Assembly (NCBI RefSeq): GCF_025698545.1
Contig: NC_068569.1
Span: 2,914,001 to 2,978,000 of the forward strand
From: Gossypium raimondii
Taxonomy: Eukaryota > Streptophyta > Magnoliopsida > Malvales > Malvaceae
Direction: 5' to 3'
DNA: 64,000 bases
A program made the position numbers and the translations under genes. Below the pieces are notes generated by a model. It was not told where the DNA came from. It did no database searches and saw nothing but the letters and a program-made list of their open reading frames with translations. Positions 7,274 through 48,097 of the stretch are shown one piece after another. The first letter of the stretch is position 1; each line of letters begins with the position of its first letter.

Positions 7274-7825
7274 TCAAGGCAGAAGATCGTCCCCGAATAG
7301 GTAAAGGAGTCGCTCGACGGCCCAACTAGGTTCATTCTTAGGCCACACCGAGCATTGTGAAGAAGTGAGTAAAGGGGCCCTGCACAGGGGGCAAGTCTTG
7401 TGATTGTTACTATCATCTTGATCATGATCATAATCATGATGGTCGTGATCTTGATCTTCATCATAGTCAACCCATCTGTCAATGCAATCTTTGTGGAACA
7501 CGTGACAACAGTTCCTCAATTCTCTGACCTCGTCACCTTCCTTCAGCTGATTCAAGCAGACTGCACACGTGTCAGAAACCCAAGGCACCCTTTCCTTAGC
7601 ATCTTCGAAGGTTGTCAACACCAGGCTGTCTCTAATCATTTGTGAAGAAACCAAAGAAGAAGAAGTGTTGTTTTGGGAGTCAGATGAAAAAATGAAACTA
7701 AATAAACTCGTGTCTTTAAACCTAAGAGCCCAAGACCAGACCCATCTTAAAACTGCTAAAACAACAGCTGTTTTGTAAAGAAGATGGGTTACAATTAGCC
7801 CTGGATCTTCTACAAAGAAACCCAT
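7274..7825 (-). CDS. RING-H2 E3 ubiquitin ligase, BRH1/RHA-like
   Basis: Single-exon gene of 183 residues. An N-terminal hydrophobic stretch (about residues 10-34) could be a membrane anchor. The RING-H2 core begins with CAVC and continues through NCCHVFHKDCIDRW to KTCPLCR, giving the C-C-C-H-H-C-C-C ligand order of RING-H2. Proteins of this group (BRH1, RHA1/2, XERICO-like) are small membrane-anchored ubiquitin ligases in hormone and stress responses. The arrangement NC.H.FH..C.DRW followed by KTCPLCR is closest to BRH1/RHA1. Between the sixth and seventh zinc ligands lies an Asp/His-rich insert of about 20 residues (DYDEDQDHDHHDYDHDQDD), longer than the short spacer usual there. The ATG at 7825 lies about 115 nt downstream of a TATA box. 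The exact subfamily is uncertain. Confidence 0.9.
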   Translation of the reverse strand: MGFFVEDPGLIVTHLLYKTAVVLAVLRWVWSWALRFKDTSLFSFIFSSDSQNNTSSSLVSSQMIRDSLVLTTFEDAKERVPWVSDTCAVCLNQLKEGDEVRELRNCCHVFHKDCIDRWVDYDEDQDHDHHDYDHDQDDSNNHKTCPLCRAPLLTSSQCSVWPKNEPSWAVERLLYLFGDDLLP

Positions 7826-11250: not shown

Positions 11251-11804
11251 AAATTTAAAGGGTAAACTATTCCAACAGTCACTCAATTTTGGAGTAGTTT
11301 ACAAAACAGTCACTCAAGTTTCAATTCAGCCACTCAACTTTCGAAAAATAACAAAACAGTCACCACCATTTTCCGTTACAGACTTCCATTTTTCATCCCC
11401 CTATCCCATCCCTGTCCCTCTTCCCATAGTCCAACCCTCTTCCCCTAATTTGATTCTTTCCCTCTCCCCCACCATCCCTCCTCTTACTCCAATTCTCCCA
11501 CTCTCTTCCTCTCGAAAATCATTAAGTTTGCTGCTTTGGCCATCGGTAAGTGATTGAATTCCTTAATCCAAATTCTCTTTTTAATTCCAGGGCTAGGGTT
11601 TCATAGCTCTTTTTGTTGAAAACCCTAGTCTAATTCCACTTTCTAGGAAATTTGGAGTAGTTTCCCAATGAGGAATCATTGTCTCCATGCTTTAAAAGAT
11701 CCCAGATTTCGTGGAATTTTCAATAGATTATTTGCTTTGATTTTGATTTTGATTTTCCTACTCTACACCCGGGTTGATTTATTAAGAAACCTTCAATTCG
11801 CCAG

Positions 11805-12107
11805 TTGTCTCGGTTTATTAACCATGTGACTCGAGGACCTGGTTTCACTAATGGGTGTGATCATTTTAGTGTTATTCATACAAAAAACAGTGAACTTGAT
11901 GCAAATTCATCAAATTTAGCTGATAAGAATGCTCAAGAGAATGATTTGAGCATAAGCTTGAGCAACCCTGCTTTGTGTTATGGATTGTTTAATCATAAGG
12001 GTTTTGTTAATCCATGTGAGTTCTTGAAAGCTCATCCCCAATGTTATTCGGATGGTTCTTTGATTACATTAAGTTTTTCTATTGTGGTTGTGAAGAATTT
12101 AGGATAG
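11805..12107 (+). pseudogene. Gene fragment inside the MULE (captured 5' exon?)
   Basis: A 100-codon open frame inside the MULE, lacking domains I recognise. The frame is open upstream of its first ATG. Balanced composition and ordinary codon use (GFTNGCDHFSVIHTKNSELD) make it look like real coding sequence rather than AT-rich noise. The preceding 11540-11800 resembles a 5'UTR/intron plus a leader (AGGGCTAGGGTTTC). It may be the captured 5' end of a host gene, perhaps for an organelle-targeted protein. Product unknown. Confidence 0.35.
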
Positions 12108-12239
12108 CAGAGTATGTGGTAAAATAGGGACAAATACAGGTGAAATGGGTCTTAATAGTGTGTTAGGTGGTGCAATTTTTATTAGTTGTGTTTTTGTAGG
12201 GACTATCTCCCTTTGTGTAGAAGAGAAGAGGATCCAGAT

Positions 12240-12450
12240 TGATAAACGATGCTTTATTAGAGAATCGGAGTAGGGGGAGGGATGATGGATTAGAGAGAAA
12301 GAATCATAGGGGGAAAAGGGATAGTGGGGGGAGGGAAAGCATGAGAGTAGGGGGAGGGATGATGCTTTGTTAGCAAATGGATGATGTGGGGGGGAGGGAA
12401 AGCATGAGAGTAGGGGGAGGGATAGTGGGGAAGAGGGAGAGGGACAGGAG
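12240..12450. repeat. GA-rich imperfect repeats in the MULE
   Basis: Imperfect repeats of GAGAGTAGGGGGAGGGAT and GGGAGGGAAAGCAT occur several times. The region is roughly complementary to the CT-rich stretch at 11395-11515, extending the inverted structure beyond the TIRs. Confidence 0.6.
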
Positions 12451-12933
12451 AGGGGGTGGAAAATGGAAGTTTGTAACGGAAAATGGTAGCTCTGTTACAG
12501 ACGTAACGGAAAATGGTTAGTGGTGACTGTTTTGTTATTTTTCGGAAGTTGAGTGACTGAATTGAAACTTGAGTGACTATTTTATCAAGTACCCCAAAAT
12601 TAAGGGACTATTGGTGAAATTTACCCAAATTTAAAAAAAAAAAACAAAAAACAAAAGAGAAAAAACTTAACCATCAATCGCTCTGACTTTTGGGAAACAA
12701 AAGAAATTTGTTACCTAAAAGCCATCGAGGAGTTCAGGCAGACACATGTAAGAAAAATGAAAGCCATCATCTGTCATTTCCTAGTGACTAGGCCAAGTTT
12801 GATTGTTATCATTGTTTATTATTTCAATGTTGGCAAACTTGTGATTAAGAAGATTTTGTTGAATAAATGCGGAAACTAAAAAAAGTAGAATTCGACCCCC
12901 TTAATCCATAACCTTTTTCACCACGCTGCATTC

Positions 12934-13310
12934 TAGAGGTGCTCATGGGCCGGGCCGGGCCCATAAAAAAATTTCAGCCCGTGTCCTAGGCCCGGGCTCG
13001 ACCCTGCCCGAAATATGGGCCTAAAATTTTGTCCAGGCCCGACCCGGGGAAAAAATCCTAAGCCCGGGCCCAGCTCGGCCTATTTTTTAATAAACACCAA
13101 AAAAATAAAAAAAGTATTTTAAAAATATTTTAATATTTGTAAAATATTTTTAAAAATAGAAAATAAAAAAATATTTATTATATTCGGGCCGGCCCGGGTC
13201 AAAAAAGTGGTGCCCGAGGCCCGCCCGTTTTTAAACGGGCCTCATTTTTTTGCCCAAGCCCATATTTCGGACCTATATTTTTATCCAAATCCTCCCATAT
13301 TTCGGGCGGA
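12934..13310. mobile_element. GC-palindromic hAT-type MITE, degraded copy
   Basis: Starts TAGAGGTGCTCATGGGCCGG and contains alternating GGCCCGGGC-type motifs around an AT-rich core, then AAAAAAGTGGTGCCCGAGGC and AAACGGGCCTC. It shares order and motifs with the intact copy at 41362-41747 but has lost a recognisable right terminus, so the right limit is approximate. Confidence 0.6.
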
Positions 13311-14427
13311 CCGCATTATAAAAAGAAAAAAAAAGATTAATTTTAAGTTTTAACATACCATTTAATATTTTTTTGTTATATTTATATTTACAGGATGGAA
13401 CGGGACAGGCCATGTGACAAGCCCAAAGCATAAAATTGTTTAATTCATCGACCGACCAAGGTGGCCCATATCACATTCTCTCACACGTTGTATGTTAAAA
13501 CAGAACAGTAACTTTATTAACAAGATGGGGCCATCACATTCTCTCACACACGTTACGTGTTGCCAGAACAGTAACAAACCTAACTCGTTAGGTAAATTAC
13601 ACGGGAAACTTTTATCATTGCCTAACAAACAGCAACTTGATTGAGCTTCCATGTCGTGCGACGACCAGTTTGATGGATTGTCTACACATGTAATAACATA
13701 CATACACTTGCAGCATTATATTTTGATAAATTTTTTCGAACCATAACAATAAAAATTATTGTTGAAGTTGACGGCATGCATACGTGTCGAGTTCATGCAT
13801 GTCGGTTAACAGAGTGAAATGATGCACCTTCCTTCACATTTGCTTGTCTATTTGATTTCATACCGTGATCACTCTTTTTCATCTTCATTTTAAGTGGTGG
13901 GTGGTGGTGCAAAATCCATTGGTGTTTTCGCCGGGAATTTATGTGGTTCCAAAGTGTATTGTCATTTGCATCCAACATGGGAATCATATAACTATTCAAT
14001 CACTTAATTAAAGAAAGCTACCTCTCCATGAAAATCATAATTCATCTGAAATTTATCTACATGAAAATCATAATCCATGATATTACTATAGCATCCAACT
14101 TCAGGTTTTCACTTAATTGATCACAAGGCCAATAGGCAGAGTACGGTAAAAGAATGGTAGCCAAATTAACATTATATATATAAAGACTTAACGTACCATT
14201 TAATACAGTTTTAATATTAAATTTAATACTTAAATTTTTTATCTTAATTTAGTATTTAAATTTAAATTTAATATTTAATTTAATACTCGAATTAAACAAC
14301 ATCATGCAATCCAATAAATGTTTTATATTTGCTCTAGTAAAATAATCAAAATATTAAACTAAGCTTAATATTAATGAGAGTCGAGTTTCAGGTTCAGATC
14401 CAAAGCCGAACTCGCATGTTTCTACAT
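13310..14427. other. AT-rich intergenic DNA
   Basis: No coding region is supported. Apart from the short tandem duplication at 13469-13580 I see only AT-rich sequence with repeated ATTTAATA-type motifs around 14200-14290. Confidence 0.5.
13469..13580. repeat. Short tandem duplication
   Basis: TCACATTCTCTCACAC followed by an AGAACAGTAAC motif occurs twice (starts 13471 and 13534), spacing about 63 bp. No gene is associated. Confidence 0.6.
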
Positions 14428-14856
14428 TAAGGGTCCGTTTGTTTGCCAGTAAAATATTTTCTGTAAAATGATTTCTGGAAAATATTTTACTTTTCTGTAA
14501 AATGATTTACAGAAAATATTTTCTAGTGTTTGGATGAATCTGTGTAAAATATTTTCTGCTGTTTGGCAGATTTCCTAAAAATATTTTCCGGAAAAGTTGT
14601 TTTTACATATATTTTCCTGAAAATAACTACTGTTCTGCTGAAAAAGGTCACTAATGGCACAAGCTGAATCCTCAGTATGTGAGGCATTTAAATGTTTTTA
14701 ATGTTTATTATTTATCAAAAGGGACACAAAAGCCCGTAGACCATTGTTTAACCCATGGTGAACTAAAACATGGACTATATAGGCATTGAAGATATAAGTG
14801 CCCTAATCGCATAAAATGTTTTCAGTGAGGAATCAACACCTATGCATTCTTTCAGA

Positions 14857-14861
14857 AGTTT
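14857..14861 (+). repeat. Target-site duplication, left (AGTTT)
   Basis: AGTTT immediately precedes the left LTR and is repeated at 22961-22965 immediately after the right LTR. The 5-bp size is typical of plant LTR retrotransposon integrases. Confidence 0.85.
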
Positions 14862-17800
14862 TGTAACACCCCTTAACCGTATCCAACACCGGAATAGGGT
14901 ACGAGGCATTACCAAAACACATACACTTGTAAACGTATTTAACCGAGTTATAAAATTTCATCAAAATTAAAACTTTCAAAATAATTAACATGTTTCTATA
15001 ACTTTTCACAATATATCCTCAAAATATTATAATCATAATAATTAGGGCCTGCGAGACCCGATACATACTCATGCAATTTAATGCTTCATTTCCATTTCAT
15101 TCAATTCGCAATTTCTCATGCTCATAATTTAAATCATATCACTAGCAATTTCCATTTAATTCACGTACAATTCAATGACATCAAATTCAAAACTAATACG
15201 TATTTACCATTTAACTCAATGTTTATTGATTATACCATTCAATAACACATTTATGAAATTCTCAATTTAGCAATAAAAATATCACTTTAGTTTGAATAAC
15301 AACATCGTCCTGATATAAATACACTACCACTTATCCATTTACTTTAATTCTTTCGGGCCCATTTGTCACTTACCATCCTTAATCAAATTAGGGAACGGTC
15401 ACGGAAAATTGAGTACTTCACTTTCACTTTGCCATAGTATAACTATGGTCTTACGTATGATCACTTATCACTTGTCCCTGATCAGATAAGTGTAGCCACC
15501 TATCACTTTGTTTCTGATCAGATAAGTGTAGTCACTTATCACTTTGTTTCTTGATCAGATAAGTGTAGCCACTTATCACTTTGTTTCTTGATCAGATAAG
15601 TGTAGCTAAAGCTATTACTTATCACTTTGTCTCTTGATCAGATAGGTATAGCCGAAGCTATCACTTATCACTTTTCACTTGTCACTTGATCAGATAAGTG
15701 TCACTTATCACTTTCCACTTTCCACTTGTCACTTGATCAGATAAGTGTAGCTGAAGCTATCACTTATCACTTTGTCACTTGATCAGATAAGTATAGCCGA
15801 AGCTATCACTTATCACTTTGTCACTTGATCAGATAAGTATAGCCGAAGCTATTACTTATCACTTTCCACTTGTCACTTGATCAGATAAGTGTAGCTAAAG
15901 CTACCACTTATCACTTTTTCACTTGATCAGAAGTACTCAAATCCGGCGTTCCGCTCAATTTGATCATTTATTCATATATCAGGCTTACCAACATGTGTTA
16001 ATTCATAAACCATTCATGGTATTATTTCATGCCAAATCATATACTGAATATACCATACACACATACTATGAAACTTTATTTTCACACATGAGCTTAAACC
16101 ATGACCAATAATGCACAAAATAAGCATCATTCATATTTCATCGTTTATGAGTTATAATCAAACATATGACCATTTATACACGAATCATTCATATATTTCC
16201 CAATTTTCCTCCTCCTCCTCTCCATTCCACATCCTTAATGTGTATAACACACTTAAACAACATTAACCATAATTTCAATATTCACTAACATGTATATTCA
16301 AAGCTGTTTATCCGAGTCAGAGTCACTAAATTATTTTTATCTGGAGCTACAGAGCTCCAAATTAAGATCCGTTAATTTTACCTGAAACTAGACTCACATA
16401 TCTTCATACCATAAAATTTTCATAATTTTTGGTTCAGCCAAATAGTACAGTTTATTCTTTAAAGTTTCCCCTGTTTCGCTGTCTGACAGTTCCGACCACT
16501 CTTCACTAAAAATTAATTATCTCATTGTACAGAATTCGGATGATGTTTTAGCTTGTTTCTTCTAAAAATAGACTCACTAAGGATTCTAACCATATAAACT
16601 ATAACTCATAATCATTTTTTTACAATTTTTAATGATTTTACAAAGTCAGAACAGGGGAACCCGAATTCATTCTGACCTTGTCTCACAAAATCTATTATAT
16701 CTCATGATTTACAATTCCATTGCTTACATCATTTCTTTTATAAGAAACTAGACTCAATAAGCTTTAGTTTCATATTTTATTCATCCTCTAATTCAATCTC
16801 TACAATTTTGGTGATTTTCAAAGTTACACTACTGCTGCTGTCCAAAACTGCTTTAGTGCAAAATGTTGATTTCCATTTTGCCCCAAATTTCACAGTTTAT
16901 ACAATTCGGTCCTTTCTCAATTAACCCTCAATTAATCTAATTTTCTCAATTAGTACTTTACTAGACATTATAAGTTGTTACACAACTATTGAAATTCAGA
17001 ATTTCCACATATAACTCTATCTTCAAACTCTTTTACTATTAGGTCCCAAACATTCACTTTCTATTCAATTCTTTCAATAAAATCAGCATATGAACAATTT
17101 AAAGCTCTAATTTCATGGTAAATCATCATATACTTCCAGCACATATTCATATCAACTTTCAACTTCTTTCATAAAATCAAAAACTAATGAATTTAACAAG
17201 TGGGCCTAGTTGTAAAAGTCATAAAAATACAAAAATTTCAAGAAATAGTCAAGAATTGAACTTACTTGTAATAAAATATGAAGAACCAGCTTGAAGAAGC
17301 CCTTCCATGGTGTTTTAGCTGATGAGAATTCAGAAAAATGAAGAGAAATCTAGATAATTCCACTTGGGTCCTAACTTTATTAAGCAAATTTTCCAATTTT
17401 CCAATTTTGCCCTTAATTCTCCTTACTTTCTTGCTGATTTCATGCCTCTGCCGTCCAGCCCAAATAGACCTTGGGTCTATTTGTCTTTTAAGCCCTCTTC
17501 CTTTTATCATTTAAGCTATTTAATCATTTCCCAAAATTTTGCATTTGTTACAATTTAATCCTTTTTGTTCAATTAATTATCGGAACTTTAAAATTTCTTA
17601 ACGAAACTTTAATACTAACTTTTTAACACTCCATAAATATTTATAAAAATATTTATGGCTCAGTTTAAAATCCCCGAGGTCTTGATTCCTCATTTCAATT
17701 CTAATTATTTTAATATTTATTTCTAGTGCACTATTCACTATTTCAAAAATTTTCCTAACTTCATATTTAACTTATACTTACTAAATTAATAATATTTTCT

Positions 17801-17934
17801 ACCCATTTGTCGAATTTAGTAATCTCGAATCACCGTTCCGACACCTCTGAAAATTCAAGCCATTACATTTTTTTTCGTCGGATTTGTGGTCCCGAAACCA
17901 CTGTTCCGACTAAGCCTAAAATCGGGCTATTACA
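14862..17934 (-). repeat. 3' LTR (left copy) of the LARD-like element
   Basis: Plus-strand start TGTAACACCCCTTAACC, end ATCGGGCTATTACA. It contains the GATAAG hairpin array at 15440-15935. It aligns over its full length with the right copy, with scattered single-base changes and a 13-bp difference near 15695. Confidence 0.93.
15440..15935. repeat. Tandem hairpin array in the left LTR
   Basis: About ten degenerate units of roughly 45-60 bp contain ACTTATCACTTTG, CTTGATCAGATAAGT and AGCTAAAGCTAT. ACTTATC and GATAAGT within each unit are complementary, so each unit can fold. TGATCA is itself palindromic. The array occurs in both LTRs. Confidence 0.88.
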
Positions 17935-17950
17935 ACTCTCCCCCCCTTTA
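17935..17950 (-). promoter_or_regulatory. Polypurine tract
   Basis: On the minus strand TAAAGGGGGGGAGAGT directly abuts the LTR start TGTAATAGCCC. Such a tract primes plus-strand DNA synthesis, and it fixes the element's orientation as minus. Confidence 0.85.
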
Positions 17951-19870
17951 GGGATTTTCGTCCCCGAAAATCTTACCAGATGGTAGGTTAATGATTTACT
18001 TCCACAGTATATTTCAAATTCACACATGATTTTGGATTTTCATATCTTTTACAGATAATCACATAGATTCATAAGAAAATCAGGATAGCGATATTTCAGC
18101 ATCTGAAGCTACACAAAGTATCGAAAAATTACAATCCATATAGAATGATATCCATTTTGATAATCTGAGTAGTTTTCAGAACTATCAAATATTTCTCTCT
18201 TTTTATATTGTCCTCATTTTCTAATTCATTCACTTTTCCGACCACATTATTATTCTCCCGTACACGAACTTCTGTAACACTACACTCGTAAGCTTATTCA
18301 ACCAAAATCTCACAAATTTCATTGTAACATTTTACTAATATGGGGTGAGTGTAGTAAAGCCTCAAATTTATCTTACACATAAATGCATAACACATACCAT
18401 CACAAATAGCCAATTCATTACTAAGTTCACATTCTCAAAGCATTTAATAAACATTTGCTTTTAATCACTTTTGTTCTCAACACAAAATTCTAACTCAAAT
18501 CACTAATTCACAATCAAAATTTCTATATAGCATCATAATCCAAATATCATAACTCATATGCTTGTATAATTATAACATTCATCAATAAAAAATGTTTTAT
18601 TCTTTGATCCATACCTTTATGAGTTTCAACTCATAATCAATACATTTTCACTCAAACATTTTAGTATTTATTTCTATACTATTAGAATTAACTCGGTTGA
18701 AAAACATATCTGTCTCATCAAGATAATTTTCGTCATAGAACAATCTTGATAAGGGGTGATGGTGAAGTCATAAATCTTTCAACTTGCTCTCATAGATACA
18801 TATATATATATATGATTTTGTATTCATCATCAATGTAATACCATCATAACCACGTAATTCATTCCAAGCAAATTAACACATCTATTTATTACAAATGTTT
18901 TCTGTCACTCACAATTTCACACAACGAATTTACTTACTTAAGCTCAATGTTAATATCTAATTAAATTCCAATACTTGGCTTCTATTTTACTTACCGACAT
19001 TTGCCAAATTAGAGAACGTCTTACGGAATTGAGTACTTCGTTTTCTCGATGCCATAGTCCAACTATGGTCTTACACGTAATCACAAATCACATACCGATG
19101 CCATAGCCCACTATGGTCTTACACGAAATCACATATCACTTACCGATGCCATAGCTCACTATGGTCTTACACGAATCACATATCACTTACCGATGCCATA
19201 GCCCACTATGGTCTTACACGGAATCACATAATCACATGTTCACATGTTGCCATGGTCAAACCATGGTCTTTTCCAAATCAATTCATCACATATCACCGAG
19301 CGAAAGTACTCATTCCTGCGTTCTACTCAATTTGACTTCCAATTCAATTTTTCATACTATTATAATATTCATGGTTTAGACATAAAACAAAATATCTTAT
19401 TATCTTTAATTTAACAATTAAACATAAGATTCTATCATATGAACATACTAATTTCACTTATTCAAGCGGATGTACATACACACGTTCCATCTATTTAAGT
19501 AAATTTGCTTATCATATTCACTTAATCAAATATGTTGAGCACATAGCATTATATAATCACCAACATACTTGGATGAGCTTATCACAACATAAACTTTTTT
19601 TAACTTATAGTCATCTCTTTTCATACATGAACACATCCATATCACAAATTTTATACTTACCTTTCCAAATTCCAACATAACGTGAGCATATTTCATTTAT
19701 CTCAATATCATTTTTAGCATTATCGAAAATAGCTCGATTGAAAATCATCTCTGTCTTAACAAAGCAATTTCGTTAGAGCCCGGAGATATCACATCATCAA
19801 GAGTAATAACGTGGCATGTATAGCTAGGCTCACATATGCTACGTTTGGTCCGAGAACCGACTAAACCGTA
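17951..19870 (-). other. Non-coding internal domain of the LARD-like element
   Basis: About 1.9 kb without retrotransposon genes. Its section at about 18980-19380 resembles the LTR segment at about 15350-15990. Shared blocks are AAATTAGRGAACG, GAATTGAGTACTTC, CTATGGTCTTAC, AAGTACTCA and TACTCAATTTGA versus CGCTCAATTTGA. The rest is AT-rich with no recognisable gene. Confidence 0.7.
19045..19270. repeat. Internal CCATAG/CTATGG hairpin array
   Basis: Five units (the first four about 50-60 bp apart) have the form CCATAG..CACTATGGTCTTACAC, mostly followed by ATCACATATCACTTACCGATG. CCATAG and CTATGG in each unit pair. A single unit of the same type (GCCATAGTATAACTATGGTC) starts the array in the LTR. 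Confidence 0.85.
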
Positions 19871-19882
19871 GCTCTGATACCA
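19871..19882 (-). promoter_or_regulatory. Primer-binding site (initiator Met-tRNA type)
   Basis: The minus strand reads TGGTATCAGAGC, the common plant PBS complementary to the 3' end of initiator-Met tRNA, 5 nt (TTTAG) inside the 5' LTR at 19888-22960. It defines minus orientation. Confidence 0.9.
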
Positions 19883-19887
19883 CTAAA

Positions 19888-22800
19888 TGTAACACCCCTT
19901 AACCGTATCCAACACCGGAATAGGGTACGAGGCATTACCAAAACACATACACTTGTAAACGTATTTAACCGAGTTATAAAATTTCATCAAAATTAAAACT
20001 TTCAAAATAATTAACATGTTTCTATAACTTTTCACAATATATCCTCAAAATATTATAATCATAATAATTAGGGCCTGCGAGACCCGATACATACTCATGC
20101 AATTTAATGCTTCATTTCCATTTCATTCAATTCGCAATTTCTCATGCTCATAATTTAAATCATATCACTAGCAATTTCCATTTAATTCACGTACAATTCA
20201 ATGACATCAAATTCAAAACTAATACGTATTTACCATTTAACTCAATGTTTATTGATTATACCATTCAATAACACATTTATGAAATTCTCAATTTAGCAAT
20301 AAAATATCACTTTAGTTTGAATAACAACATCGTCCGATATAAATACACTACCACTTATCCATTTACTTTAATTCTTTCGGGCCCATTTGTCACTTACCAT
20401 CCTTAATCAAATTAGGGAACGGTCACGGAAAATTGAGTACTTCACTTTCACTTTCCCATAGTATAACTATGGTCTTACGTATGATCACTTATCACTTGTC
20501 CCTGATCAGATAAGTGTAGCCACCTATCACTTTGTTTCTGATCAGATAAGTGTAGTCACTTATCACTTTGTTTCTTGATCAGATAAGTGTAGCCACTTAT
20601 CACTTTGTTTCTTGATCAGATAAGTGTAGCTAAAGCTATTACTTATCACTTTGTCTCTTGATCAGATAAGTATAGCCGAAGCTATCACTTATCACTTTTC
20701 ACTTATCACTTGATCAGATAAGTGTAGCCGAAGCTATCACTTATCACTTTCCACTTTCCACTTGTCACTTGATCGATAAGTGTAGTGAGCTATCACTTAT
20801 CACTTTGTCACTTGATCGATAAGTATAGCCAAGCTATCACTTATCACTTTGTCACTTGATCGATAAGTATAGCCAAGCTATTACTTATCACTTTCCACTT
20901 GTCACTTGATCGGATAAGTGTAGCTAAAGCTACCACTTATCACTTTTCACTTGATCGGAAGTACTCAAATCCGCGTTCCGCTCAATTTGATCATTTATTC
21001 ATATATCGGGCTTACCAACATGTGTTAATTCATAAACCATTCATGGTATTATTTCATGCCAAATCATATACTGAATATACCATACACACATACTATGAAA
21101 CTTTATTTTCACACATGAGCTTAAACCATGACCAATAATGCACAAAAATAAGCATCATTCATATTTCATCGTTTATGAGTTATAATCAAACATATGACCA
21201 TTTATACACGAATCATTCATATATTTCCCAATTTTCCTCCTCCTCCTCTCCATTCCACATCCTTAATGTGTATAACACACTTAAACAACATTAACCATAA
21301 TTTCAATATTCACTAACATGTATATTCAAAGCTGTTTATCCGAGTCAGAGTCACTAAATTATTTTTATCTGGAGCTACAGAGCTCCAAATTAAGATCCGT
21401 TAATTTTACTTGAAACTAGACTCACATATCTTCATACCATAAAATTTTCATAATTTTTGGTTCAGCCAAATAGTACAGTTTATTCTTTAAAGTTTCCCCT
21501 GTTTCGCTGTCTGACAGTTCCGACCACTCTTCACTAAAAATTAATTATCTCATTGTACAGAATTCGGATGATGTTTTAGCTTGTTTCTTCTAAAATAGAC
21601 TCATTAAGGATTCTAACCATATAAACTATAACTCATAATCATTTTTTACAATTTTAATGATTTTCCAAAGTCAGAACAGGGAACCTGAATTCATTCTGAC
21701 CTTGTCTCACAAAATCTATTATATCTCATGATTTACAATTCCATTGCTTACATCATTTCTTTTATAAGAAACTAGACTCAATAAGATTTAGTTTCATATT
21801 TTATTCATCCTCTAATTCAATCTCTACAATTTTGGTGATTTTTCAAAGTTACACTACTGCTGCTGTCCAAAACTGCTTTAGTGCAAAATGTTGATTTCCA
21901 TTTTGCCCCAAATTTCACAGTTTATACAATTCGGTCCTTTCTCAATTAACCCTCAATTAATCTAATTTTCTCAATTAGTACTTTACTAGACATTATAAGT
22001 TGTTACACAACTATTGAAATTCAGAATTTCCACATATAACTCTATCTTCAAACTCTTTTACTATTAGGTCCCAAACATTCACTTTCTATTCAATTCTTTC
22101 AATAAAATCAGCATATGAACAATTTAAAGCTCTAATTTCATGGTAAATCATCATATACTTCCAGCACATATTCATATCAACTTTCAACTTCTTTCATAAA
22201 ATCAAAAACTAATGAATTTAACAAGTGGGCCTAGTTGTAAAAGTCATAAAATACAAAAATTTCAAGAAATAGTCAAGAATTGAACTTACTTGTAATAAAA
22301 ATATGAAGAACCAGCTTGAAGAAGCCCTTCCATGGTGTTTTAGCTGATGAGAATTCAGAAAAATGAAGAGAAATCTAGATAATTCCACTTGGGTCCTAAC
22401 TTTATTAAGCAAATTTTGCAATTTTCCAATTTTGCCCTTAATTCTCCTTACTTTCTTGCTGATTTCATGCCTCTGCCGTCCAGCCCAAATAGACCTTGGG
22501 TCTATTTGTCTTTTAAGCCCTCTTCCTTTTATCATTTAAGCTATTTAATCATTTCCCAAAATTTTGCATTTGTTACAATTTAGTCCTTTTTGTTCAATTA
22601 ATTATCGGAACTTTAAAATTTCTTAACGAAACTTTAATACTAACTTTTTAACACTCCATAAATATTTATAAAAATATTTATGGCTCAGTTTAAAATCCCC
22701 GAGGTCTTGATTCCTCATTTCGATTCTAATTATTTTAATATTTATTTCTAGTGCACTATTCACTATTTCAAAAATTTTCCTAACTTCATATTTAACTTAT

Positions 22801-22960
22801 ACTTACTAAATTAATAATATTTTCTACCCATTTGTCGAATTTAGTAATCTCGAATCACCGTTCCGACACCTCTGAAAATTCAAGCCATTACATTTTTTTT
22901 TCGTCGGATTTGTGGTCCCGAAACCACTGTTCCGACTAAGCCTAAAATCGGGCTATTACA
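19888..22960 (-). repeat. 5' LTR (right copy) of the LARD-like element
   Basis: Same 3073-bp length as the left LTR and bounded by TGTAACACC and GCTATTACA. It differs mainly in and just after the hairpin array: GATCAGATAAG in the left copy is GATCGATAAG in three consecutive units here, and CCGGCG is CCGCG. Confidence 0.93.
20465..20965. repeat. Tandem hairpin array in the right LTR
   Basis: Counterpart of the array at 15440-15935. The first half matches the left copy well; units after about 20770 carry repeated single-base losses. Confidence 0.88.
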
Positions 22961-22965
22961 AGTTT
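22961..22965 (+). repeat. Target-site duplication, right (AGTTT)
   Basis: Matches 14857-14861 across the LARD-like element. Confidence 0.85.
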
Positions 22966-23160
22966 AAACAGAGATATACATTTTCCAGGAGAAAAAAACA
23001 TCCATCATTTCATATCTGAATACACTTGTTTGGTACAAAATTGCTGAAATGAAAATTCTACAAACCTCAGTAAGAGAGATTTCAGATGTAATTTTTCAAC
23101 AGACTAAGGGGGCAACTAGGGAATGCAAAGAAAGAAAGTAGTAGAGTAGCAACTACATCA

Positions 23161-23265
23161 TGGCTAAAGATCCAGAGCAGCGTGTTGCGCACATACCTCC
23201 TATTGTTGCACCAGGCCCTGCAGGTCAACATGGTTTAAGATGATAATGTTACACTCAAGCCAATA

Positions 23266-23305
<40 letters not shown>

Positions 23306-23511
23306 TCCTTTCATCAAGGAGTGTAGCTGAATGTTGCAATAAGTTATTTTTCATTAAGAAAATGATATGTTGCAAGGATAACTCTAACAAACTGACCTGG
23401 ATCAAGAGGGAAAAATAAACCATAAGGCTCCAAGTATTCATTAAGTTCCATCCATCCAATTCCGGGCTCAACTACAACATCCATGTCCCGAATATGCAAT
23501 GCCTTAACTCT
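23161..23511 (-). pseudogene. D-lactate dehydrogenase (cytochrome) gene fragment
   Basis: Two exon-like pieces are joined by a valid GT-AG intron (23396-23218): 23511-23397 encodes RVKALHIRDMDVVVEPGIGW and continues to YGLFFPLDP; 23217-23161 encodes GPGATIGGMCATRCSGSLA. Together they match part of the FAD-binding (PCMH-type) domain of plant mitochondrial D-lactate dehydrogenase (DLD), which oxidises D-lactate from methylglyoxal detoxification to pyruvate and passes electrons to cytochrome c. After SLA the family residues stop: the frame meets a TAG within two codons and the DNA is unrelated. No upstream or downstream exons are present, so this is a broken fragment. It is surrounded by LTR elements and may have been carried by a TIR transposon. 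Confidence 0.8.
23266..23303. repeat. (TA)n microsatellite in the DLD fragment
   Basis: About 18 TA repeats lie inside the intron between the two DLD exon pieces. Confidence 0.9.
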
Positions 23512-23519
23512 CTACAAAT

Positions 23520-25177
23520 TTAAAAAAAAATCACTCCTAGTATCACAAATTAAAAAACCAAATGGATAGAATTGCAAATTCATTTTACACGATGGAACAT
23601 TGATGATTTTATCACAAAAGTAATTGCAAATTCAAGTACCTGATTACAAGCATGAAAGAACAATTAAAATTTTATACTTGCTCAAGAAGAACCAAGACAT
23701 TTTGTAGTAGTTCCATGACATTACAAAACATCTTATTCAGATGTATGTAATAAAATACAATGAGACTCGCAAATGGTTTATCACAAATCTTCGCTAGAAG
23801 CCGACCTATGTAAGAAGTTTCGGTTTTGCTACATGTTCAAGTTCAACATAATCCTAGTAGTAGTTCCATGACATTACAAAACATCTTATTCGAACATTTA
23901 TTTGGGTGATTTCTTAGTTATCCAAGGAAAACAAAAGGGCATAAAAAATTTGAAAATTTTCTCTGAAACAACAGTTGAAACTCAAATTTCACTCAATCAA
24001 AAATGACAAAAGTTTCCTCGATCTGAAATTTACAATTGAACCCAATAAAACATAATATGAAACTAATGAAACATGTCCAAAATATAATCCTTCAATAAGC
24101 ATGATAAATTCCACATCATTATCCCTTAATATGAGAAAATGCAGGATCAAATGTTAAAGTATTGAAGTAAAAGAAATGACCAACATATCCTTGTACAAAA
24201 TGCCAAAGAAGATATCCAAACTTTTATTGACACTTCCAATAGAACTAGCATGATCTTGTCCTTCATCACATGTAAATCACCTTCTCTTAACTCTCTAAGA
24301 AGGAAGAGCAATTCTATTGCTAGGACGGAGGACGATACATAGAAAAACTAGCAGATCCCTAATGTATAAACATAGCATTGAAGGACAATTTCTGAAGCAC
24401 ACTATTAACCTTGCAACAAATGCCAACTCAACAAAGTCAAATACTTGTGGCAAAATTGTGCAGGCAAGCTCATCAAGCAAAATCAGAAATCAGGCAACTA
24501 TTAGCAAGGAATTATTGTTAGATATTATATATGTATAGTTTCTGTATTAAGAGATTATGACTGAACAGACTCAAATTCCTTTTTCTTCTCGGCCTCTCTT
24601 CTCAATTCTTGATTAAGTAAAATTTGGTTTTAGAGCTAGTCAAGATTCACCATAGAAATTTGGAAAAGCACAAGAAATACAAAGAAATGGCAGAAGGAAC
24701 TAGACTCAATACCCATTCTAGATTCAACTGGACACACTTAAGGAATCTAACAACCAGAAATATGCTAACTTTGTGGAAAATCAAGAACATATCACTAGAA
24801 TTTTGGAGTTAATGGATAAAAAAGGACTACTAGCAAACCAGAAAATACTAACAGATGAGTCTAAAGTTAGTGTGAGTCCAAGCTAAGATCAAGCAATCAT
24901 TTAAACCCAACACTCAATATCCACATCATAACACAAAACTGTAGCTCAAATTGATCGGGTAAGACAAAGTTGAAAAACGAAGGGCTTCGATTTTTCTTTT
25001 TTATTATTTAAAAAAATTTTTGTATTACATGAAACAAAAATTAGAGAGAAAAGGAAGGAAAACATAAGAGTAATCGATCAGAGATGAGACATTAGAGAAA
25101 TATGCAGATACCTTGAGGAGATCAGAGATGAATTTTTCTCGACTGTGGACCCTAATGTTTTAGGGTTTCTTCAGAAT
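23520..25177. other. Sequence between the DLD exons and the second LTR element
   Basis: AT-rich, with no further DLD exon recognised. Its right end on the minus strand reads GAAACCCTAAAACATTAGGG, then CTCCTCAAG followed by GTATCTGC. This looks like a leader with a splice donor, so it may be the 5'UTR or first exon of the source gene. The flank beyond the LTR element (29593 on) continues the same leader in minus orientation. Confidence 0.4.
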
Positions 25178-25182
25178 ACAGA
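25178..25182 (+). repeat. Target-site duplication, left (ACAGA)
   Basis: ACAGA precedes the 5' LTR and recurs at 29588-29592 right after the 3' LTR end. Confidence 0.8.
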
Positions 25183-28100
25183 TGTAACAGCCCAATTTTT
25201 AGTAGTGTCAGAATAGTGATTTGAGATCACTAAATCTGATGAAAACGTTAGAAAAATTTATTAATTAATAATTATAAGTTCAGCGTGATTTTAGAAATAT
25301 TTTTGAATGAGTGAATTTTGTGATTTAAAAGAAATTACTAGGTAAATTGGGTCAAAAACGAGGTATCGAGACCTCGATACTATAAACTGAGTTGTAAATA
25401 TTTTTATAAATATTTAAGGAGTGTCATTAGGGTAGTATTAAAGTTTCGTTAAGAAATTTTAATGTTCCGATGATTAATTGATTAAAAAGGACTAAATTGC
25501 AACAAGGGTAAAAGTTTAATTATAGATTAAAGAAAAGTTAAAAGGACTAAATAGGTAAATATGCCAAGCCCCATAAATGAGGCGGCATATGCATGGTAAA
25601 AATCTGAGATTTTTTTTAAGTATATTATTATATTATTATATTGTAAATTATATTAATTATATTATATTACTATATTTTTAAATAAACAAAATTGTTGACA
25701 AATGCATGGTGTATAGGATGACATGTGGAAAAATGAGATACATATATATTAGTAATGATTACATATTTACTTATTATTTAAGTAAGTAATTTTATATTAT
25801 TATTTTATTGTTATTATATTAAACTAATTAAATAAAAGAAATAAAAGATGGAAAAGAGGAATAGAAACAGAATAGGCAAACGAAACAGAGAAGGAAAGAA
25901 GGAAAGGAAAGAAAAGAAAAAAAAGGGAAGGAAAGGAAGAAAATTTGGGATTTTAAGCTTTCAAGCTTAATTGGTAAGTTAAATTAAGTCCTTTTCTTAT
26001 AATTTTTAGTTTTTGGTATTCTAGAATAAAGTATTATTGGATTTATGTTGAAATTTTTGAAGTTATTATATTTCTAGACATTGATTATGTTGAATAAATG
26101 AAAGAATTAGGGTTAAATTGATTAAATTTCAAGTTAAAAGTTAGTAAAAGGTTGATTTGTAAAATAAATTATAGGCTTTGAATTAATAGGGACTAAATTG
26201 AGAGAATTTCAAAATTAAGGATTTATGGTGAAAATGAAGAGTTAAAGTGAATTCATAGTAAGAATTAAGAGAGCATATGGAGTTAGATTGGGAAAATAAA
26301 ATTAGTATTGATAAGGGATTAAATTAGAATTTAGGTAAAGTTTAGGTATAAATGGAAATATTTTAATGAAATTGTGTATTAATAATTTTTAATTGTTTAA
26401 TTACGTAGCTAATGTCGTGCAAGAGTCATTGCCGAGAAAGGAAAGGGGAAGGTGATCAAGGAGTGACTCGAGAAAATTTACGGTTAGTATTACCATAATT
26501 CGAATTTAATTATTAATTGTTAAAATTTAAATTAATATACATGATAAGCAAATTGAAGTAAGTATCATGATTGAATTGAATGATAAATACGTATTGATAT
26601 TGAATTTATTAATAGCAATTGTTGAATTTTGAATAATATGTTTAGTAAATAAAAATAAGGTGAATATTGATATTGAATTAAATGATATTGAATCGTATGT
26701 GAATTGAATGAAATTAAATGAAGTATGAATATGTATGAGCATTTGATGGTATACTGATTGGAAGATGAAAAATGTATTGAATTAAATTGTGATTAAATTG
26801 GAATTGAAAGTATGAGAAAGTGATTGAATTGAAATGTGATTCGAATACCCTATTAACTTATCGGACTAGATTGGATACAAATGGCATGCCATAGGATTTG
26901 TGATGTGATAAGGAGATTTGTAGCTCGGCCGAGAAGATGATTATGTTATTATATGCTTCGGTTTATCCGAAAAGGCATTTAATGTCTTATTGGTGTGTTT
27001 GGGAGGATATGATATATTGGGTGTGTTATGGAGGATTTATATTTATTTTAGGTGTGTTTTGGTTGGATATTCTGGTGTGTTTGGGTGGAATCCGCGTATC
27101 TGTCAGAGTCCGAGTCAAGTTAATAGGGGTAAATGAATAATTTTGATAATATAAATTTTATTGAATGATCTTGAATATGAATCGAAAAGAAAAATTAAAT
27201 TGAGATATAGAAAATGAAATGTATGAACCATGGGTTCAAGAAATAGATAATGATATAATTCATGAAATGGTTTTGGTAGTAAGAGATGATGTAAAATCTA
27301 AATGAAGAAAAGCAATTTGAAATAGCTTTTGTTGAAAAATGAGAAGTGAAAATTAAATGATTTGAATAGTGAAATTATATGTGAATTTAATTGAATACAA
27401 GTTATTGAAATTTATTTATGGATTTAATGTATAAATTGAGTGTTAAAAGATTATATGTGTAAATTGATTTAAAATGAGCGAATCGAATTGAAAGATAGAA
27501 ATTTTATAAAATTAGTTATTATTATTATTGAAACATGTTGGTTTAAACGTTTAATTTGATTATTAAAAGATTAAAAGTATAAAATGAATATAGATAGAAA
27601 TGATAATGAATGAGTTGATAAAGTGATTGAATTTGTATAAATTGGAATGAGTTACTAGAATGAGATGTTGAAAAATCCAATAGAATTGAGATAGTGAAAT
27701 AAGGTATGAATACAATTAAATACAAGAATTGAAATATTGCTTATTGTTATTAATTATCAAGTTGGTTTTATTTACGAGATAATTAATGAATAATTATAGA
27801 CATAAATTAAATGTATATAATTTATCGATTAATATTATTAATTTGAATTATAGTAATACCATTGAGTATTCCCATGCTCACGTCACAGTTGTTTCCGTGC
27901 GAGTTAGTAGAAATCCGATGTTCGGTCCAGCATCCAGAGTAGTCCCGACCTCAGAGAAATTTTAGTGATGTACCTTTGTTTGATAATGTGGCATATACCT
28001 AGGTGATGTATAGGTTAAGTATAAAAGTTTTGTTATTACGGTTGTAGAATGATGTTTATATTGGTTATAAGTATGAAATGGAACCAATATGACATATTTG

Positions 28101-28215
28101 ATACAAGTATGCTATATCTGTTATTTAATTGTGAACTAGTTATAAGTTATCTGATATATCTGGTAATGCTCCGTAACCCTAATCCAGCGATGATTTAGGG
28201 TTAAAGGGTGTTACA
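25183..28215 (+). repeat. 5' LTR of the Tekay-like element
   Basis: About 3.03 kb, TG...CA bounded. AT-rich, with a purine-rich tract at about 25850-25950 and four GGTGTGTTTGGG-like repeats at 26990-27095. It shares a block around AAATATTTTTATAAATATTT and TATTAAAGTTTCGTTAAGAA with the LTRs of the other element. Confidence 0.85.
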
Positions 28216-28220
28216 TGTAG

Positions 28221-28232
28221 TGGTATCAGAGC
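28221..28232 (+). promoter_or_regulatory. Primer-binding site (initiator Met-tRNA type)
   Basis: TGGTATCAGAGC, 5 nt (TGTAG) after the 5' LTR end. Same PBS as in the LARD-like element. Confidence 0.9.
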
Positions 28233-28363
28233 TATCGGATTTAGTCGATTCTCGGACTAAATCGGGCTCAGAATTGAGTTTAGATGTACATGCCACAATC
28301 GAGTCAAACTGAGTCGGGATTTTTGGATGCTGATATAATTATTTGTTTTGTTTTATAGTTAAA

Positions 28364-29008
28364 ATGTCGAATGAACACGTGGAAGATGTAGATCAAGAAA
28401 TGTATATCAGAGATAAAGAATTGGATGAAACAGAATCAGCTACACCGAGTGTAAATCCATTAGGTAACCAACCTAATATAGAACGGGAAAATGTTAGAGA
28501 CAGAGATGACTCTCATTTACTGAGAATTATAGCCGATGCTTTGCAACGAGTAGCGAGAACTGTACCTGCTACGACATCTACTCCTACTACTAGACGGGCC
28601 CCAATCAAAGAATTACGAAAATACGGTGCTACTGAATTTTTGGGTTTGAAGGGAATTGATCCACCCACTGCAGAAAATTGGATGGAATCAACTAAACGAG
28701 TTCTGCAGCAATTAGAATGTACCCCCCGAGAGAGCTTGATCTGTGCTGTTTCTCTACTGCAAGGAGAAGCTTATTTGTGGTGGGAATCTGTAATACGACA
28801 TCTACCTACAGAACAGGTGACATGGGATTTATTTCAAAAAGAATTTTAGAAGAAATATGTTGGGGAGCTGTATATTGAAGATAAGAGGCAGAAGTTTTTG
28901 ATGTTGAAACAAGGTAACCTGTCTGTTGTAGATTATGAACGTGAATTTTCCAGACTCAGCCGATATGCTTCTGAGTTTATACCGACAGAGGCTGATAGTT
29001 GAAAAGAG
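28364..29008 (+). pseudogene. Truncated retrotransposon gag
   Basis: The open frame starts MSNEHVEDVDQEMYIRDKEL and enters a retrotransposon gag domain (ENWMESTKRVLQQLECTPRE, GEAYLWWESVIRHLP, TWDLFQKEF). In-frame stops occur at 28847-28849 (TAG) and about 28999 (TGA). Between and around them the family sequence continues (KKYVGELYIEDKRQKFLML, SRLSRYASEFIPTEADS). Near 29008 it passes into LTR-like sequence; the zinc knuckle and pol are absent. Confidence 0.85.
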
Positions 29009-29587
29009 GTTAGAGTCTCGGTTCAGCATCCAGGACAATCCCGACTCCAACATAAAGATTTTGGTGATGTTTTCTTCCTTTAAGAGAAAGTGGCATGTAC
29101 ATAGGATTTATAATAGTTATTTTGGCATGTTATATAGTTTTGTTGTAAAGTAAGATATTATGTGTTTTGATGAGTATATTAGAAAAATGGTATAAGTTAT
29201 TTTTATAGCATTGGTATCAAGTTGAAATGGCTTAGTTAGTTTTATGTGTTAATTAGAAATGATAATTGGATTTTATTTACTTAAGTTGTTATGTCTATAA
29301 GTCAAGTAGGATTAAGTATATAAATGCATTGGTTGAAATCTTGAAATTAGGTTGGTTATGTTTGAAATTTTGTAGGGGGTTTAATGTAAAAATAAGTCGA
29401 AATCTTTTAAATTTTTATAAATAAAAATAAAAAAATGAATGAAATCAATTAGTACAAATTTATAACAATTTATGAATTATTTTAATATGTTGGTTATTTA
29501 TTTCGATTTATTTATAAATTGTTTGATATGTCCGGTAATACCTCGTAACCCTGTTCCGGCGACGGTTTGGGGTTAGGGGGTGTTACA
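29008..29587 (+). repeat. 3' LTR remnant of the Tekay-like element
   Basis: Aligns with the last ~330 bp of the 5' LTR through TTCRGTCCAGCATCCAG-like, GTCCCGACC-like and CTCCGTAACCCT-like blocks, ending GGGTGTTACA. Divergence by eye is far greater than for the LTR pair at 14862-22960. Confidence 0.7.
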
Positions 29588-29592
29588 ACAGA
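29588..29592 (+). repeat. Target-site duplication, right (ACAGA)
   Basis: Matches 25178-25182 across the Tekay-like element. Confidence 0.8.
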
Positions 29593-29696
29593 GGCAAGGC
29601 CGATGGTCGACCGACAGAGACGACGATGCAAAGATGGTGCGGTGAGGCCAATGAACGGAGATGAGGAGTCGGAGGAAGAGGGAGAACCACTACTTA

Positions 29697-30308
29697 GGGT
29701 CTGTTTGATTGCCAGTAAAATATTTTCCGTAAAATGATTTCTGGAAAATGTTTTACTTTTCTGTAAAATGATTTACTGGAAAATATTTTCTGGTGTTTGA
29801 TTGAATCTGTAAAATATTTTCTGCTGCTTGGCGATTTTTTGAAAATATTTTTCGGAAAAGTTGTTTTTACATATATTAATATATATTAATAAATTTTTAT
29901 ATTTTAAATTATTTTTACATATATTGCATTGATTTATTTATAATAATACTCAATTATTAAGCTACAATATTAATCGTTATAAATTGAAAAAACTAATATC
30001 AAATAAATTATTTGTAATTGTGTTAAAAAATAAGTATTGAATAATTAAAAAAACAAGTTACTGGAAAATCGATAAACAGAAGTAATTTTCTACCGAAAAT
30101 GAAGGAAGGAATGAAGGAGGCGATAGAGAGGAGAGCACGGAAAATGTCTTACGGAAATTGAAAGGGTAAGACATTTTCCCTAAAATGTAACCCATTTTCC
30201 CTTATTTTGGAGTTCATTTTCCAAATGGAAAATATTTTCCTCCAATCAAACGCTGGAAAAGTTAGAAAAGATTTTTCGAAAAATCAATTCCGTCAATCAA
30301 ACAGACCC
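29697..30308. mobile_element. Tourist-like MITE (PIF/Harbinger type)
   Basis: The 612-bp element has perfect 15-bp TIRs, GGGTCTGTTTGATTG and CAATCAAACAGACCC, with TTA at 29694-29696 and 30309-30311. Non-coding interior with many GGAAAATATTTTCC-like inverted motifs. Inserted within the right arm of the larger element 14431-30492. Confidence 0.88.
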
Positions 30309-30495
30309 TTAGAAGAGAAGAGGGAAAATGTCTTACGGATTAGAAATCGGTAAGACAATTTCCAAAATTTGCTTTTGATTTTACCCGTGTTTGTAAAATG
30401 TTTTCATATGGGAATTCATTTTACACAAAACAAACACCGGAAATTTCGGAAAATGTTTTCCGGAAAACATTTTACACCAAACAAACGGACCCTAA

Positions 30496-31040: not shown

Positions 31041-33488
31041 ATGGAAGGGGAAGCTGGTTCATACGAGGACGTTAAGCCAAACGTCGTCGCTAAACAAAGT
31101 AATGGCGATGTTGTCGGGGATAATGGTGTTGGAAATCTGGGATCCGTTGAAGCCCCTGATTTTCTTTCCAAGAAAAATTTCCAGAACTGGTAAGGGTTAT
31201 TTATTTTCTTTCCTGGGGAAGGAAGAGAAAATTTATTTCTGGATATGGGTATATTATTAGACTGCAGTCCGGTTATTGTGGCATTTTGGATTCGAAAATA
31301 GAAAGTTTTCACTTTGAGTTGGTTAATTTATCTTAATCATGTGAAAATTAAATGCTTAATTAATTACCCTAATCTAATTTGTTGAGGATAAATTATGCGG
31401 CTATGATTTATTCTTTTTTCCTGCTGGGCTATTTTATCGACACTGCATAATTCTAGAATATAGTAGTAGTACTATTAGTTTTTGTTGAGATATTAAATGG
31501 CTGGAAGGTGACCCACGGCTTTGCATATTTTGAAAACATAGTACTACTACTGTTAATTGAGATGATGGTTGGAAGGTAACCCACGCTTTTTTCGATTCTT
31601 TCATATAGTCAATCCTTGTAAAAGTGCAGATTAACAAGTTTCAGTTGAAATTGCAGCACTTGTAAATTTCAATAATTTCTTTATTTCCTAATTACCGTCT
31701 TTTTATTTTTATTTTAAAATAAAAGGAATGGGTAGAGGTACAGCAAGCTTTAGATATTAGATTCTAGGTAATTGTTAGGATTTGGTTGAATTCTAAATCT
31801 CATAGTTCTTTTGAGGGCTTCTAGTTCTAGTTATGTTTTCCCTTGGTATATAGCTTTTTCCATAGCACTTGAAGATGTTCTATTCTTCTTGTATTCTACA
31901 ATATTTATAGCGGGACAAACTTAAAAGGAAACGAGGAAAAAAAAAAGAGCAATCAATTTATGGTTGTTGTTACCGCATGACGATGTATCTAACCATTTTG
32001 TTGAATTCTAAATCTCATAGTTCTTTTGAGGGCTTCTAGTTCTAGTTATGTTTTCCTTTGGTATATAACTTTTTCCATAGCACTTGAAGATGTTCTATTC
32101 TTCTTGTATTCTACAATATTTATAGCGGGACAAACTTAAAAAGAAAAGAGGAAAAAAGAGAGCAATCAATCTATGGTTGTTACGGCATGACGATGTATCT
32201 AACCATATAACTAACATCAGAGAACGGTATTAGTTTGTATAAAGTCATAGATATAAGGAGAACAACTTCTTTTTGGATGTGCATGTACCACTTGTATGTT
32301 ATGTTCCTATGACAGGCTTCTATAATGTTATCAACGCTTTTTCTTTCGTTTGTGAATAAGTTCCGTGGCAACTCCTGCATCTGGACTGAATTCCACTAGC
32401 CCTGCTCCATCTCAACTAACCATCTTCTATGATGGACACGTTTGTGTGTTTGATGCAATTCCTGTGGAAAAGGTTGGCCTTTTTACTTACTAAGTTCTAG
32501 CAGAATGAGGTCTTATTACAAAATTCAACATCGATTCATGTCTGTCAGGTGCGGGAGATTATGCTTATTGCTGCAACTGGTGCTGCTAACTCTGTTGACA
32601 TGAAGAAAGTTGCAACTGATTGTGCCACCACCTCACCTGTTCTTACGAGGTCTCCTTCGCTTCAAAGTACTGCTACTGCAACTGCTCTGGCTTCACCACA
32701 GGCACAGGTGTATCCTACTAACAGGACCCCTTTCTGCAAACTGAAAGGTCAGTGACTCTCAACTAATTTATCTGGAAGACGGATGAATTTAAAATGTAAA
32801 TATTTTTATGATTAATCATTTCAACTCATGTTAGCTAATATAGCTTGATGCTTCTGTAAATATCTATTGGATCAGAACTACCAATTGCAAGGAGACACTC
32901 CCTTCAGCGATTTTTTGAGAAGCGGCGGGACAGGTACCTCTTCCACACTGAACTACCAGCCTCCTTGTTTCTTTCTTTCTTCTATCAAGCAGAATAAAGT
33001 CTTCCTTTTTCATGTTTAGGTTTATGTTTCTAAGCATTCATGATAGACACTTAATATATACAATAAGATGATGTTATATCAATACAAGTATTGTTAGTTA
33101 TTGTTGTGATTTACTTTAGATGAAAACTATCAACTATTCACTAAGTGGACAACATTATTATATGATAGTCGTACATCTTCCTTTTCCTTCTCCCTTTATA
33201 TATATATATATAAAAAAATAACGGTTATAATATAATATTAGCTATTTAGAATTTGTGTCAAGCATAGGGATTGGGGAATATAGTCGAGGTGGTAAGTGTT
33301 ACCATTTGCTTGTTTCCTTTTGCAGGCTGGTGAACAGGAATCCATATCCTAATCCATCAACACCAAAATCATTTGATGACACCAAAGCTAACCTCAGTGC
33401 TGCAACTTCATCAGAATCGGGTTGCTTTGGTAAATCACCTGTTGCTCAAGAAGAATTCCATCCAAAAGCTCCAGCTCATGTTGCATAA
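31041..33488 (+). CDS. JAZ12: JAZ/TIFY jasmonate repressor, JAZ11/12 (TIFY3) type
   Basis: Five exons, all GT-AG and in frame: 31041-31189, 32361-32472, 32549-32747, 32876-32933, 33326-33488; 681 nt, 226 residues. A TIFY domain (SQLTIFYDGHVCVFDAIPVE, about residues 65-90) recruits NINJA and mediates dimerisation in this family. A Jas motif (ELPIARRHSLQRFFEKRRDR then LVNRNPYP) includes the LPIAR degron used with COI1 and binds MYC-type factors. Order TIFY then Jas is standard, and the long Jas with RLVNRNPYP and an acidic EEF-containing tail resembles JAZ11/12. JAZ proteins repress jasmonate-responsive genes in the nucleus until degraded. Exon 2 uses acceptor GAATAAG at 32360, chosen because it alone keeps the frame and the TIFY domain. 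The symbol denotes the closest Arabidopsis group, not proven orthology. Confidence 0.88.
31786..32206. repeat. 215-bp tandem duplication in JAZ intron 1
   Basis: 31786-32000 and 32001-32206 are near-identical copies, beginning TTGAATTCTAAATCTCATAG and ending GACGATGTATCTAACCAT. Differences are a few substitutions and short A-run/TTG length changes. Lies within the 1.17-kb first intron. Confidence 0.88.
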
Positions 33489-47947: not shown

Positions 47948-48097
47948 GGGTGAGTTTGGATGGGCGATTGAGTGCAGTGCGGTGTGTTTAGTTTACTTTT
48001 TGTCTCACGCTACAGTGTTGCTACAGTATCTAATCACACTGCCACCGCTGTTTTTACACTAACCACAGATAAACGCACTGTCCATCCAAACTCACCC
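47948..48097. mobile_element. Small Tourist-like MITE
   Basis: 150 bp with GGGTGAGTTTGGATGG and CCATCCAAACTCACCC as perfect TIRs, flanked by TTA (47945-47947, 48098-48100). Inside are GTGCGGTG and CACCGC-like inverted motifs. Confidence 0.88.

Follow-up and report, generated by a model that had tools for sequence, protein, structure and literature searches.

A 64,000-nucleotide stretch of the Gossypium raimondii genome (contig NC_068569.1, positions 2,914,001 to 2,978,000; hereafter the window, to which all coordinates refer) contains two perfect inverted termini 16 kb apart. With a probability of roughly 0.65, these termini bound a non-autonomous PIF/Harbinger (Tourist-type) Pack-TYPE element, in which two arms of miniature inverted-repeat transposable elements (MITEs) enclose a piece of a D-lactate dehydrogenase (DLD) gene, and which was later interrupted three times. 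The terminal repeat GGGTCCGTTTGTTTG occurs once on the plus strand of the window, at 14431, and its reverse complement CAAACAAACGGACCC also once, at 30478. The two match as inverted repeats at 15 of 15 positions, and TAA stands directly outside both. We scanned the window for perfect 15-bp inverted pairs that lie 100 to 25,000 bp apart and have identical TAA or TTA outside, and found three pairs, compared with none in 20 second-order Markov resamplings. The three are the outer termini, the inner MITE described below and a 150-bp element at 47948-48097; the last is a Tourist-like MITE with perfect inverted ends GGGTGAGTTTGGATG and TTA on both sides. The layout of the outer element is as follows, with the strand given where one was assigned.

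14428..14430: TAA, presumably the left target-site duplication copy flanking the outer element, by direct reading
14431..14613, plus strand: outer left MITE arm, beginning with GGGTCCGTTTGTTTG, by alignment to the inner MITE
14614..14856: captured or filler DNA, segment 1, without similarity to the inner MITE above background
14862..22960, minus strand (from the primer-binding site): element resembling a large retrotransposon derivative (LARD), with long terminal repeats (LTRs) and an AGTTT duplication; later insertion
22961..25182: captured DNA, segment 2, whose first five bases are the right AGTTT copy and whose last five are the left ACAGA copy
23159..23217, minus strand: DLD exon B, (G)PGATIGGMCATRCSGSLAM, then M and a stop, by translation
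23218..23396, minus strand: DLD intron in its genomic form, GT...AG, with a TA microsatellite; borders set by eye
23397..23511, minus strand: DLD exon A, RVKALHIRDMDVVVEPGIGWMELNEYLEPYGLFFPLDP plus the first base of a split G codon; AG precedes and GT follows
25183..29587, plus strand: Tekay-like LTR element that is truncated past gag, its 3′ LTR end piece being dissimilar; ACAGA duplication; later insertion
29593..29693: captured DNA, segment 3, continuing segment 2; leader-like by eye, without ATG on the minus strand
29697..30308, plus strand: inner 612-bp Tourist-like MITE, sharing its family and orientation with the outer arms; TTA duplication; later insertion
30312..30492, plus strand: outer right MITE arm, ending with CAAACAAACGGACCC, by alignment to the inner MITE
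30493..30495: TAA, presumably the right target-site duplication copy flanking the outer element, by direct reading

The termini are of PIF/Harbinger type. The presumed duplication is a 3-bp TAA, as expected of a superfamily that duplicates TTA or TAA, and GGGTCCGTTTGTTTG, paired over 15/15 positions, has the G(N)5GTT start and falls within the 14-25 bp by which the terminal repeats are defined (PMC2213677). The terminal repeat consensus of the Medicago truncatula PIF/Harbinger-like subfamily MtPH-A6-1, GGGTCCGTTTGGTTC, shares 13 of 15 positions with GGGTCCGTTTGTTTG, and the Medicago elements likewise target TTA/TAA, with reported lengths of up to 25,288 bp between termini of this kind (PMC2213677). 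Unlike the complete Medicago elements described there, which were found through their transposase, the cotton element has the arms of a short MITE family and no identified transposase. Only two open reading frames (ORFs) of at least 100 aa lie between the outer termini, one gag-like and one within a LARD-like LTR; the absence of an identified transposase between the termini is based on the ORF list, to which no transposase profile was applied and which a spliced gene could escape. A helper transposase would sit elsewhere in the genome. Rfam gave 0 matches at gathering scores. A 15-mer scan of IMG/VR returned 15 stretches, which we attribute to chance because only 2 of the 15 match the arms at E <=0.01, over 19 and 17 bp.

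The alignments make it evident that both outer ends belong to the inner MITE's own family, one as a left half and the other as a right half, in the same orientation and in the right order, because each arm aligns to the end of the inner MITE to which it corresponds. When the arms are aligned to the inner MITE, its first 181 bp share 167 of 180 ungapped positions with the left arm (4 gap columns) and its last 184 bp share 134 of 172 with the right arm (21 gap columns). Self-BLAST of the window matches 14422-14613 to 29690-29877 at 90%, and the local score of the right arm against the right end of the inner MITE is 82, compared with a maximum of 31 in 200 shuffles. The middle of the inner MITE, positions ~182-430 of 612, is absent from both outer arms. 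The two arms have not diverged equally: mismatches to the inner MITE number 13/180 in the left arm and 38/172 in the right arm (p = 7e-5, Fisher's exact test; p = 1.4e-4 with a shortened right arm), as measured against one reference copy that could itself be a mosaic. These results suggest that the arms derive from two neighboring MITEs without their facing halves rather than from one opened MITE, since the latter predicts equally diverged arms.

With the three insertions removed, the outer element comprises 183 + 2,566 + 181 bp (~2.93 kb), of which the 2,566 bp lie between the arms. Neither segment 1 (126 of 300 shuffles reach the observed score) nor segment 3 (198 of 500) is similar to the inner MITE above background, and the match of segment 2 to the inner MITE is confined to the TA microsatellite. 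We therefore reject the reading of segments 1 and 3 as a diverged MITE middle, their similarity not exceeding that of shuffles. An exact 35-bp direct repeat is also present in the captured DNA (23704-23738 and 23857-23891) and may have arisen during its assembly or by local duplication.

The captured DNA includes a host gene fragment, as in Pack-TYPE elements, namely two DLD exons with the intervening intron. The intron is 179 bp long with GT/AG borders, and exons A and B, when joined, encode RVKALHIRDMDVVVEPGIGWMELNEYLEPYGLFFPLDPGPGATIGGMCATRCSGSLAM. The 58 joined residues match PF01565 (3e-10) and the structures of mitochondrial D-lactate dehydrogenases in the PDB (1.3e-10). Because the intron is retained, the piece is of genomic rather than mRNA origin. 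A complete DLD gene in place can be rejected: for the exon that precedes exon A in a Gossypium barbadense protein (P0016), the window offers no credible match, the best hits with P0016 (E 1.5) and with another protein, P0001 (E 0.60), both lying near 10,100 and crossing a stop.

Each of the three later insertions is flanked by an intact duplication, and both LTR insertions have 5-bp duplications and TG...CA ends (TGTAAC...TTACA), as expected of LTR retrotransposons. The LARD-like element, between AGTTT copies at 14857-14861 and 22961-22965, has LTRs of 3,073 bp each (14862-17934 and 19888-22960) and a primer-binding site in reverse complement at 19871. Between its LTRs there are 16 differences in 3,058 ungapped positions and a further 32 gap columns, and the resulting divergence (K 0.0053) indicates a young element. 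Imperfect tandem repeats are present within both of these LTRs (15461-15935 and 20485-20963). The Tekay-like element lies between ACAGA copies at 25178-25182 and 29588-29592; its lineage name is taken from an earlier reading of the sequence rather than from any analysis here. Its 5′ LTR is complete (25183-28215) and is followed by a primer-binding site at 28221. The gag region is partial and split by a stop codon into two pieces; the piece past the stop matches PF03732 at 3.2e-6, and the piece ahead of it reaches 0.023 only, below the curated cut-off. The 3′ LTR end piece (28999-29587, its start set by eye) aligns best with its own 5′ LTR over 131 columns, of which 97 are identical, and this copy is therefore truncated and perhaps chimeric as judged from its sequence. 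It may represent a chimera of two related templates formed prior to insertion. The very end of the same 3′ LTR shares 43 of 54 columns with the LARD-like LTR. The inner MITE is flanked by TTA at 29694-29696 and 30309-30311 and has terminal repeats that match at 15/15 positions. We infer the order of the three insertions.

The initial annotation of the window had arrived at this layout from the letters: perfect 15-bp inverted termini with TAA outside and 16 kb apart, a LARD-like element with an AGTTT duplication, a Tekay-like element with an ACAGA duplication, a 612-bp Tourist-like MITE with TTA, and a remainder of about 2.9 kb with a DLD fragment. All of this is borne out by the measurements given above, the coordinates being correct to within the duplications, but the truncation of the Tekay-like element had gone unremarked, as had the homology of both outer arms to the inner MITE. 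The right flank of the Tekay-like element, as had also been stated, continues its left flank; segment 3 thus continues segment 2, because the ACAGA duplication flanks the element.

A protein search returned 53 proteins, and the sequences of 10 of them were compared. The 50-residue predicted protein P0004 is identical to the spliced window fragment at 50 of 50 residues, including the end GSLAMM-stop; P0001, P0005 and P0053, which are all the other compared proteins that run past GSLA, have V after it. P0004 stands for two member sequences on six contigs, under the names V6Z12_A11G071000 [Gossypium hirsutum] and ES332_D08G04... (a partial tag). We take ES332 to be G. tomentosum and read the two tags as chromosomes A11 and D08, which are presumably not homoeologues. 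If both placements are right, the protein locus tags suggest dispersal of the altered DLD piece, which a moved element would be expected to show. P0016 and P0015 (G. hirsutum, tag D04) join exon A to earlier DLD sequence, and either may represent the source DLD gene. Since the protein record of P0016 joins exon A to the preceding exon, a fuller DLD copy probably exists elsewhere. Open-licence PMC articles yielded no literature link between D-lactate dehydrogenase, MITE and Gossypium, and none between lactate dehydrogenase, Gossypium, pseudogene and transposable element.

The proposed Pack-TYPE element could have formed as follows. Two MITEs of the same family, neighboring and in the same orientation, would have flanked DNA that included the DLD gene piece. 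Their facing inner halves would have been lost, and the remaining outer left and outer right halves, with matching 15-bp repeats, could then have acted as the ends of one element. A transposase acting in trans would have moved the resulting ~2.9 kb to a TAA site, where the LARD-like element, the truncated Tekay-like element and a further MITE of that family would later have inserted into it. Both the fusion step and the transposition as a unit are steps that we infer. A capture model of this kind for Pack-CACTA elements is reportedly due to Catoni et al. 2019.

Growth of Pack-TYPE elements by fusion of neighboring insertions has been described with examples of maize Pack-PIF elements (Gisby and Catoni 2022, PMC8903248). 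Of 13 local PIF pairs in maize, 12 have both members in the same orientation (PMC8903248). Like Pack-PIF as described there, the cotton element is non-autonomous, has 15-nt terminal repeats and an internal host gene fragment, and is consistent with fusion of neighboring insertions. It differs in size, with 2.57 kb (two exons and an intron) between its arms, whereas the maize example has inserts of 163 bp and 58 bp and the average element is 535 bp (PMC8903248). It also differs from the Pack-PIF elements of that report in being split by three later insertions. In Pack-CACTA, a single hybrid element results when neighboring insertions lose the ends that face each other (cited in PMC8903248; also a 2026 review, PMC13317346), which is the same fusion logic but in the CACTA superfamily, not in PIF/Harbinger.

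The strongest competitor, clearly less probable than the Pack-TYPE reading yet deserving serious attention, is that two separate MITEs of the same family flank a local DLD pseudogene, each without its inner half, and that the segment has never moved as a unit. The unequal divergence of the arms from the inner MITE agrees with this, as do the inner copy itself, which shows that the family inserts at this spot, and the finding that segments 1 and 3 are not MITE. What it requires is two independent losses, both of which spared the outward-facing halves and left 15/15 matching repeats with the same TAA, and a static pseudogene leaves unexplained the altered-end fragment under the tags A11 and D08. 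We consider it unlikely that the element instead began as one MITE that broke open in its AT-rich middle, was filled with DLD DNA by gap repair capture, and was then mobilized. The missing part is indeed the middle of the MITE (~182-430), and a single origin would give matching repeats and TAA without extra assumptions; however, the equal arm divergence that it predicts is at odds with the observed 13/180 and 38/172, unless the inner MITE is a mosaic. A chance match of termini with no element behind it is hardly credible and can be rejected, with nothing found in its favor, 0 pairs in the 20 resamplings, and both ends homologous to the arms of one MITE family.

Several observations weigh against the Pack-TYPE reading. 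By itself, the matching TAA is weak evidence, since the PIF/Harbinger superfamily usually targets TTA/TAA. The arm asymmetry rests on a single reference copy, mutations in such repetitive arms are perhaps non-independent, and it is also compatible with two half-MITEs without a history of joint movement. Outside the 15-bp repeats, similarity to the outer right arm is 72.8% over 81 columns for the outer left arm and for the inner left arm alike, and thus the arms alone do not prove pairing. The left edge of the outer right arm lies within ~10 bp of the insertion point of the inner MITE (30309-30322), for which we found no explanation. The P0004 loci are known from protein locus tags only, and this window could itself account for one of them. 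A protein search with the translated flanks, joined across the insertion points of the Tekay-like element and the MITE, was empty, which says little since the frame need not be annotated.

The initial annotation had proposed a single non-autonomous PIF/Harbinger-type element that captured a DLD fragment and was then bombarded by transposons. The superfamily, the non-autonomous nature and capture followed by bombardment are all supported by the termini, the TAA, the family, order and orientation of the arms, and the P0004 tags; the origin of both ends from one element needs refining, as their unequal divergence makes them look derived from two MITE copies. It had also regarded termini belonging to separate short MITEs as contrary to its proposal, and the ends are in fact MITE arms of unequal divergence. 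This refines the idea rather than kills it, because the published Pack-TYPE model builds such elements from MITE ends. We regard as doubtful a further extension, in which the MITE-built composite would be a dispersed cotton family that spreads an AUG-free leader exon, with a possible splice donor near 25111 on the minus strand, together with DLD exons having canonical splice borders, and so gives rise to a short chimeric transcript (for the predicted protein P0004) at several loci in both subgenomes.

Other features were noticed elsewhere in the window. An inverted-repeat structure of ~1.4 kb (11260-12626), with 107-nt arms that are 87% complementary and further arm pairs inside, is perhaps another terminal-inverted-repeat element. 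The dispersed inverted pair 12944-13270 and 41409-41737 (80.5% identical over 339 columns) probably represents two copies of one repeat, and a tandem duplication of ~217 bp with 94% identity lies to the right of the outer element (31780-32206). Three long ORFs appear by eye to be RING-finger-like (7274-7825, minus strand), F-box-like (36823-38067, plus strand) and proline/glutamine-rich (49534-50742, plus strand).

The composite at this locus is a good example of a known process, not a new one. It shows how later insertions conceal Pack-TYPE elements, and it explains why a 50-residue "hypothetical protein" has been annotated for what is probably a gene piece carried by a transposon. Confirmation would make it a clear eudicot Pack-PIF with both source MITE arms still distinguishable, and the published fusion mechanism would then become testable by asking whether the two arms fall in two subfamilies.

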